This document shows, piece by piece, positions 33,931 to 36,086 of a stretch of 64,000 nt of DNA. The stretch covers positions 9,452 through 73,451 of the forward strand of contig JACPHN010000012.1 of NCBI GenBank assembly GCA_016188575.1, in the 5' to 3' direction. The translations under genes and the position numbers were made by a program. This stretch comes from Candidatus Schekmanbacteria bacterium (GTDB lineage: Bacteria > CSSED10-310 > JACPHN01). Under the pieces are notes generated by a model. That model was not told the DNA's origin and did not search any database. It saw nothing but the letters and a program-made list of their open reading frames with translations. Positions within the stretch are counted from its first letter, which is position 1. Every line of letters begins with the position of its first letter.

Positions 33931-34313
33931 TACCCCCGGCGCGACTCGAACGTGCAACCTGCGGATTAGCATACCCCACCCGGTTTCCCGAGCCACCGCT
34001 CGCCGCGGTGTTGGAGTCTGGACTATATCTTCGCCATTCCAGGCGCGGCGCGTATAGTCTCTGAGGGTCCTTGGTAGTGCCTCTACAGGCCTCGCCCGCG
34101 GTTCCCTGCGGATTGCCCATTGTCGCATCCCGAGGTCTTTTTTCACCGTCACGTACGCTCGCCACGCGGGCCGCGTTGTGGTGCCTCGGGCTTTAGGGGT
34201 TCCCCGCATACTGCGCCGTCCACTTCCACGGTTGGGCCTCGCCACAGCGATGCTGGTTCCCGCGGAAGGCTCCTTGTTGAAGTCCGCTGCTCTATCCTTT
34301 GAGCTACGGGGGC
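33931..34313 (-). tRNA. tRNA-Arg(UCU) interrupted by a group I intron
   Basis: On the minus strand exon 1 (34313-34280) reads as acceptor GCCCCCG, TA, D-arm GCTC-AAAGGATA-GAGC, A, then anticodon stem GCGGA and loop start CTT. Exon 2 (33969-33931) gives CTAA, TCCGC, AGGTT, the T-arm with TTCGAGT, and acceptor CGGGGGT plus A73. Joined, the loop is CTTCTAA, anticodon UCU (Arg), 73 nt in total. The acceptor has six Watson-Crick pairs and one G-U. The T-stem has one A-C mismatch. CCA is not encoded. The gene starts 12 bp after the dnaA stop and may be co-transcribed. Confidence 0.9.
33970..34279 (-). other. 310-nt group I intron in the tRNA-Arg anticodon
   Basis: The insert splits the tRNA between U34 and C35. 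Core elements read on the minus strand are Q AATCCGCAGG (34105-34114), R CTCAGAGACTATACG (34051-34065) and S AAGATATAGTCC (34020-34031); GACTAT of R pairs with ATAGTC of S as P7. The exon end CUU can pair with GAG eight bases into the intron, giving the U-G wobble expected at the 5' splice site. The intron ends in G, as the mechanism requires. No homing endonuclease ORF is present. It is probably self-splicing. Confidence 0.9.
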
Positions 34314-34325
34314 AGTTCTGTTCTC

Positions 34326-35795
34326 CTATCCTCCGGCCGAGCTTCCCTTGCCAAGCTCGGTCCGCAAGCGACGAAGCGTCTTCGCGATCACCTCATCCTG
34401 CTTGTCCAGATCCTCGATTTTCTTGCACGCGAAGATGACGGTGCTATGATCTCTCCCACCGAACTTGCTGCCGATTTCCGTGGTCGAGTCATTGGTAAGC
34501 TCGCGCGCCAGATACATGGCAATCTGTCTGGCTTCGGCAACCGGCTTGGTGCGCCCCCTGGCTCGGAGGTCGCGCGACTTGAGGCTAAAATACTCCGCCA
34601 CGCGATCGATCACAAGCTCTGTTGTCACCCGCGCCTCCGGTTCGTTGAGGATGTCGCGCAGCACTTCGCGGACAAAGGGGACGGTGATGCGATTCCCGCG
34701 GAAAGCGGCCTGAGCCGCAACGCGGTTGAGACACCCTTCGAGCTCGCGAACGCTGGACGTCACGCGCTCGGCAATGAAGAGCGCCGCATCGTCGGGCACC
34801 TTCACCTTCAGTGACGCCGCTTTCTTGCGGATGATGGCCACCTTGGTTTCGAGGTCTGGCGGCTGGATGTCGACAATCAGGCCGCACTCGAACCGCGATC
34901 GCAGCCGGTGCTCGAGGGTCTTGATGTCCTTGGGCAGGCGGTCGCTGGTCAATACGATCTGCTTATGGGCGTCATATAGCGTATTGAAGGTATGAAAAAA
35001 CTCTTCTTGCGTGCGCTCTTTTCCCGCCAGGCCATGGACGTCGTCGATCATGAGCAGGTCGACCTTGCGGTACCGTTCCCGGAAGCCGGTGACCTGCTGG
35101 TTGGTGATCGATTCGATCATTTCTTCCATGAAGCGCTGCGACGGCACGTAGCACAGCCTCACTTCGCCGCCGCCGACAGCGGCGCGACTTGCCACCACGT
35201 GGCCGATCGCGTGCAACAGATGCGTCTTGCCCAAACCACTGCCGCCGTAGATGAAGAGCGGGTTATAGCGCCCCGCGGGATGCTCGGCAACGGACAGCGA
35301 CGCCGCGTGCGCAAATTGGTTTCCCGCCCCCACGACGAAATTGTCAAACGTGTAGCGGGTACTGAGCGGCATGCCCGTATATTCGCAACTGCCCTGTCGG
35401 CCCGCGACGGCGCCTTCCTCGACCAGCGCGGCAAAGAGGGTTTCTACTCCCGGGTTTTCCGGGCCACCCTTGGGATCGGCTGCAGCAAGGCGCCGCGTCG
35501 TTGGCCGCCGACCTGGCGCAGCGCTCCGGAACGCCGCCTGAGCGGGAACCGGCTCGGGATGCGCGAAGACGACCGACACCTCCTGCCCGTCATCGCAAAC
35601 CTCGCGAATGGTCTCCTGGATCAGGTGCGCGTAGAACGTTTTTAGATATCGGCCGTGATCAGCATTGGGAACGGACAACACAACGTTGTCACCCATGTGA
35701 CGTTCCAGGCTAACCGGCGCGAACCATCGCTCGTAACATCTTGAGGTCACCTTTGCTCGTAGGCCTTCCTGAACGCGCGGCCATAGGTTATCCAT
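34326..35795 (-). CDS. dnaA: Chromosomal replication initiator DnaA
   Basis: The 489-residue protein has all four DnaA domains. Domain I begins LWPRVQEGLRAKVTSRCYER. A variable linker (about 85-150) follows, then the AAA+ domain from TRYTFDNFVVGAGNQFAHAA with Walker A GGSGLGKTH and Walker B LLMIDDVHGL, and the domain IV helix-turn-helix signature GRDHSTVIFACKKIE near the C-terminus. The start chosen is the ATG before DNLWPR with GAGGTGG upstream. Its neighbours are a tRNA and a PepF-type peptidase; dnaN, recF, gyrB and rpmH are not here, so the usual origin gene order is absent. Confidence 0.97.
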   Translation of the reverse strand: MDNLWPRVQEGLRAKVTSRCYERWFAPVSLERHMGDNVVLSVPNADHGRYLKTFYAHLIQETIREVCDDGQEVSVVFAHPEPVPAQAAFRSAAPGRRPTTRRLAAADPKGGPENPGVETLFAALVEEGAVAGRQGSCEYTGMPLSTRYTFDNFVVGAGNQFAHAASLSVAEHPAGRYNPLFIYGGSGLGKTHLLHAIGHVVASRAAVGGGEVRLCYVPSQRFMEEMIESITNQQVTGFRERYRKVDLLMIDDVHGLAGKERTQEEFFHTFNTLYDAHKQIVLTSDRLPKDIKTLEHRLRSRFECGLIVDIQPPDLETKVAIIRKKAASLKVKVPDDAALFIAERVTSSVRELEGCLNRVAAQAAFRGNRITVPFVREVLRDILNEPEARVTTELVIDRVAEYFSLKSRDLRARGRTKPVAEARQIAMYLARELTNDSTTEIGSKFGGRDHSTVIFACKKIEDLDKQDEVIAKTLRRLRTELGKGSSAGG

Positions 35796-36086
35796 CTGGT
35801 AGCCCACCTCAAATGTACACAGCAGCCCGCGGGCACAAACCACCTATCAGGACCGGGAGACTGGTAGGAGAACTATCACGAGGTCCTTGAGAAGCGCTCT
35901 ATGGGCGACCCCCAATCGCCATCTTTCTCCTACGGACCTCTTGATCTGTTGTGTAGCGGACCATAGCTGCTCTCGAAGTATCCCCAACAACCGACAACAG
36001 GAAAGTACCAGGGCACCGTCCGGGTGTCAAGTCGTGAGCCATCGACAGCTAGATTTCGGCACCCGCCGCTGCCGGCCGTCGGCGGC
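35796..36086. other. Gap upstream of dnaA
   Basis: About 290 bases between dnaA and the pepF stop. It has a somewhat lower GC content than its surroundings in 35880-35990. I looked for DnaA boxes (TTATCCACA and close variants) and AT-rich unwinding repeats and found none that convince. It presumably contains the dnaA promoter. Confidence 0.4.

Follow-up and report, generated by a model that had tools for sequence, protein, structure and literature searches.

A Group I Intron in the Anticodon of a tRNA-Arg(UCU) Gene Behind dnaA in a Candidatus Schekmanbacteria Genome

The Split tRNA-Arg(UCU) Gene

The DNA analysed here, called the window, is a stretch of 64,000 nucleotides from an assembly of Candidatus Schekmanbacteria bacterium (GCA_016188575.1, contig JACPHN010000012.1). 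Its minus strand carries, at 34313-33931, a tRNA-Arg(UCU) gene which is interrupted by a group I intron between U34 and C35, that is, within the anticodon. The 5' exon (34280..34313, minus strand) supplies nucleotides 1-34 and ends in CUU at the splice site, as delimited by the cloverleaf of the spliced form; the intron (33970..34279, minus strand, 310 nt) reads CAACAAGGAG...GGGGTATG; and the 3' exon (33931..33969, minus strand) supplies nucleotides 35-73 from CUAA to A73, the CCA end being unencoded. The upstream neighbour is dnaA (34326..35843, minus strand), identified by Pfam (Bac_DnaA, 4.5e-67), and the tRNA gene begins 12 nt past its stop codon on the same strand, directly behind dnaA as an earlier reading of the letters alone (the sequence-only reading) had placed it.

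Removal of the 310 nt, which that reading had considered necessary for a normal cloverleaf, joins 34313-34280 to 33969-33931 and gives a 73-nt product called tRNA-Arg(UCU) by ARAGORN. In addition, the junction was located by an unbiased scan, in which all combinations of an upstream U and a downstream G on either side of the intron core were joined and each product was scored. The top product, with a score of 120.2, was tRNA-Arg(UCU) exactly at the proposed junction, so the scan arrives at the same split between U34 and C35.

Intron Architecture

All of the intron elements lie on the minus strand. P1 (34270..34282) is formed by CUU^C (34282-34279) and GGAG (34273-34270) with a U-G wobble at the 5' splice site, and the P2 region (34223..34268) by CTTCC (34268-34264) and GGAAG (34227-34223). 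The 5' strand of P3, CGGCGC (34213..34218), pairs with GCGCCG (34051-34046), as assigned from covariation and position, and that of P4, TGCGGG (34203..34208), with TCCGCA (34112-34107), as assigned from the RF00028 match, covariation and position. P5 and a peripheral extension, the latter found also in Chloroflexota relatives, occupy 34116..34199. In P7, GACTAT (R element, 34054..34059) pairs with ATAGTC (S element, 34026-34021), again by covariation and position, while P8 (34032..34045), consisting of CGCC (34045-34042) and GGCG (34035-34032), is placed by sequence, covariation and the covariance model; the P9 region (33979..34010) contains the hairpins CACCGC/GCGGTG and CTCGG/CCGGG. Pairing is complete in P1, P2, P3, P4, P5, P7 and the P9 hairpins. 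The sequence-only reading had listed Q, R and S elements with the GACTAT/ATAGTC pairing of P7, the pairing of exon CUU with intron GAG including the wobble, and a terminal G in the intron (TATG^CTAA), and every one of these was found in place.

A core alignment naming P3, P4, P5, P6, P7 and P8 was made from 31 other tRNA-Arg(UCU) introns, the window intron being excluded. Core pairs are formed in 96.3% of its 801 cells, with 142 two-sided changes, compared with 31-38% pairing and 9-29 two-sided changes for slid partners used as a control, and covariation is strong in P3, P4 and P8. The covariance model built from the same 31 introns (R1) matched the window intron with 103.6 bits (E=3.3e-25), a significant covariance score of the kind whose absence would have spoken against a group I intron, and gave no second match in the rest of the 64-kb window and the 9.2-Mb genome. 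All positions of the P3-P7 pseudoknot with P4, P5, P6 and P8 were matched. Pfam gave no matches for reading frames overlapping the intron, and a promoter and terminator scan gave matches at chance level only.

Detection by Standard Tools

Default ARAGORN reported zero tRNAs in the 64-kb window and Rfam at its gathering thresholds no matches; with its intron option, ARAGORN shifted the junction by one base and misnamed the gene tRNA-Ser(GCU), so the expectation that default tRNA finders would miss or misplace it was borne out. The authors of tRNAscan-SE 2.0 themselves state that the program was not designed for detecting bacterial tRNA group I introns (PMC8450103). The check with RF00028, the Rfam group I intron model proposed in the sequence-only reading, gave at permissive settings on 461 bases a weak match (21.2 bits, E=0.0031), which falls short of the gathering cut-off of 50 bits, a curators' threshold and not a biological feature. 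Since other clear members of the tRNA-Arg(UCU) intron group score 38-42 bits and are likewise under the cut-off, the shortfall reflects the cut-off and not membership. At the default threshold, RF00028 did not pick up the window intron in a search of the whole genome and the phylum, and a DNA search of 60 genomes gave, outside the window, matches to the tRNA exons only. Sub-cut-off RF00028 scores may be why this intron group has been little noticed.

Relatives of the Window Intron

Relatives were collected with a pattern consisting of the intron S element joined to a 3' tRNA half starting with CTAA. The window contains a single match to this pattern, and none of 100 shuffled versions of the window contains any. 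Among genomes, taken one per species, at least 118 loci in at least six phyla were found, and 17 more in viral contigs; the rarity implied by the sequence-only reading, to which such an intron was unfamiliar, is not borne out by these numbers. Among the matches listed, a proper 5' half was located for 113 genome and 15 viral loci, and the junction is CTT^CTAA in all 129 resolved genes, window included, the CTAA being required by the search pattern and the 5' half being free. The hosts include members of the Bacillota (Exiguobacterium, Neobacillus and Melghirimyces), Bacteroidota, Acidobacteriota (Pyrinomonadaceae), Chloroflexota (Anaerolineae), Omnitrophota and Gammaproteobacteria (Vibrio, Photobacterium, Aeromonas and Enterovibrio).

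Among the relatives, introns in the range of about 600-675 nt carry endonuclease reading frames, which belong to three families, namely PD-(D/E)XK (PF11645, 1.7e-33), HNH (3.6e-12) and, by a weak match, LAGLIDADG (1.4e-4). The window intron has no endonuclease recognisable by Pfam and is a small ORF-less member of this widespread bacterial tRNA-Arg(UCU) intron lineage; because the endonuclease is lacking, this copy was probably inherited or moved with the tRNA by recombination.

At loci L190-L206, in particular L192, L194, L200-L202 and L205, tRNA-Arg(UCU) genes of phages or prophages carry group I introns, and several of the intron-bearing genes in viral contigs have HNH endonucleases; some of these contigs may be prophages with a host tRNA. 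According to a review of 2014, all phage introns then known were in protein genes (PMC3984707). A Microcoleus phage (L219, OR578706.1) has an annotated tRNA-Arg of 286 bp whose 3' exon does not begin with CUAA, an annotation indicating that some annotators do record such split tRNAs.

Comparison with Known Introns

The tRNA-Leu(UAA) intron splits the anticodon after U34, behind a 5' exon ending in CUU. It resembles the window intron in its group I core and in being small and often ORF-less, and differs in its host, which in the window is tRNA-Arg(UCU), and in its guide, since AGGAG of the window intron reads CUUCU and not CUUAA. The tRNA-Leu(UAA) gene of the genome itself is intact. The endonuclease I-Ssp6803I of the Synechocystis tRNA-fMet intron belongs to the PD-(D/E)XK superfamily, and several tRNA-Arg(UCU) relatives likewise encode PF11645 PD-(D/E)XK endonucleases; the fMet intron has a different host gene, and the window copy is without endonuclease. 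Also close are the tRNA-Arg(UCU) introns of Exiguobacterium, Neobacillus, Vibrio, Pyrinomonadaceae, Anaerolineae and others, which have the tRNA, the CTT^CTAA junction, the core and the guide in common with the window copy and differ from it in sequence and host phyla and, in some, by endonuclease genes.

Group I introns in bacterial tRNA-Leu(UAA), where the UAA anticodon is the site (PMC5733544), and in tRNA-fMet have long been known, and those in tRNA-Ile(CAU) and tRNA-Arg(CCU) are mentioned as well (PMC5733544, PMC8450103; reviewed in PMC3984707); the four hosts named in the sequence-only reading all appear in these papers. No description of a group I intron in bacterial tRNA-Arg(UCU) was found in the open-access literature, which is weak evidence because subscription papers mostly lay outside the search. 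Sequences of 22-49 nt that PMC5733544 reports as "group I introns" from further cyanobacterial tRNAs, tRNA-Arg(ACG) among them, were considered as comparables and set aside as too short.

Other introns came to light beside this lineage. In five genomes (L209, L210, L214, L216 and L217) and a viral contig (L204:10223-10354), tRNA-Asn(GUU) genes are split as CUGU^UAA by group I introns that are not known to have been described. Furthermore, the flanking sequence suggests that R1 matches at L213, L215 and L218 sit inside 23S rRNA genes belonging to other genomes, and the 3' end of a tmRNA gene (L177:345-1422) is overlapped by another group I intron match.

Guide Sequence and Proposed Splicing

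Among the matches listed, 120 of the 129 introns have GGAG, and 98 have AGGAG, within their first 45 nt, the respective shares of control windows being 11.5% and 4.5%. AGGAG complements spliced CUUCU, with a single U-G wobble where the 5' exon ends, and P1 and P10 are predicted from this complementarity to cover positions 32-36 together, and with them all three bases of the anticodon UCU. A guide that spans the anticodon would confine the lineage to tRNA-Arg(UCU).

In the proposed reaction, by which the 310-nt intron is predicted to remove itself from the tRNA-Arg(UCU) precursor, exogenous guanosine at P7 would attack after U34, held as the U-G wobble in P1, and the freed CUU 3' end would then attack after the terminal G of the intron. 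C35 and U36 would pair with AG of the guide (P10) during exon ligation, and the product would be an uninterrupted tRNA decoding AGA. A broader and more tentative proposal, which we put at somewhat below even odds, is that these introns form a widespread, so far undescribed mobile lineage whose guide reads the tRNA-Arg(UCU) anticodon, which crosses phyla and phages with the help of homing endonucleases of three kinds and at times takes the entire tRNA gene along, and which leaves many genomes apparently without an AGA tRNA in standard annotation.

Origin of the Gene and Its Intron

Among seven further genomes of the phylum, six have an uninterrupted GGACTTCTAATCC gene. These intact genes belong to a conserved cluster whose complete order is Pro-Arg(UCU)-His-Arg(TCG)-Leu (no Pro is reported for the L224 stretch). 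The gene of the window is located outside this cluster and adjoins dnaA instead. For its tRNA body, identity is 90% and 89% to two genes from Chloroflexota and 76-81% within the phylum. In a tree of intron cores the window intron groups with tRNA-Arg introns of Chloroflexota and Acidobacteriota (clade support 1.0), the nearest core being 76% identical, and its P5 extension is common to some of them. Because tRNA and intron together resemble Chloroflexota genes more than those of the phylum itself, the gene and its intron were most likely acquired together horizontally, with the ancestral intronless gene replaced or lost. This part is less certain than the rest, as direction and source of the transfer are read from 73 tRNA bases and about 130 intron core positions.

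With regard to origin only, the intron could have jumped within the phylum from the tRNA-Leu(UAA) intron of a relative (L071), which stands behind the same 5' exon end, GGACUU, at the equivalent position and falls in the same clade; this is rather unlikely, since core identity is 0.73-0.76 to Chloroflexota tRNA-Arg introns compared with 0.64 to L071, and the tRNA body too is closer to Chloroflexota, so that both the tree and the tRNA identities weaken such a local jump. The likeness to Chloroflexota, together with an estimated contamination of 3.7%, would also fit a contig that is an assembly contaminant carrying the intron of another organism, which would affect the host only; contamination is unlikely, because the genome's single DnaA match lies on this contig and is 43-54% identical to DnaA of the phylum, the sole comparison set.

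Taken as a whole, the locus is best explained as a self-splicing, ORF-less member of the tRNA-Arg(UCU) lineage, to which we would give a probability of about 95% as judged from sequence, its acquisition together with the tRNA gene being the less certain part.

Decoding of AGA

The genome assembly gave 39 tRNA matches, with Arg(CCG), Arg(GCG), Arg(TCG) and Arg(CCT) read by ARAGORN. Neither ARAGORN nor an intact-gene pattern found a second tRNA-Arg(UCU) in this assembly, which is 93.8% complete, so that a further intact copy may have escaped it; a supply of AGA tRNA solely by another gene, which would have counted against the sequence-only reading, was thus not seen. AGA codons are in use, with three in dnaA and others in two of the four other window genes counted. 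The Arg(GCG) gene (L006, G000:C16:1089-1161) is read by ARAGORN with the anticodon GCG where most bacteria have ACG. Elsewhere in the assembly, a 126-nt tRNA-like gene (L065, G000:C245:26100-26225, minus strand) has its anticodon loop extended by a structured segment of about 53 nt, a length that falls far short of a group I intron, and ARAGORN calls no tRNA there.

That the locus is a dead remnant, a pseudogene whose intron is no longer spliced while another tRNA reads AGA, is very unlikely: in its favour are an A51-C63 mismatch and a G1-U72 pair in the mature tRNA and the incompleteness of the assembly, but the core helices are all intact, the splice determinants are all present, AGA is used and no other tRNA-Arg(UCU) was detected.

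With this gene as the sole detected source of an AGA-decoding tRNA, translation of AGA codons in the organism would depend on the ribozyme. Moreover, the defaults of ARAGORN and RF00028 miss the gene, so many bacterial tRNA inventories may wrongly omit tRNA-Arg(UCU). The introns collected here also offer a test bed for how an anticodon-spanning guide may fix an intron to one tRNA.
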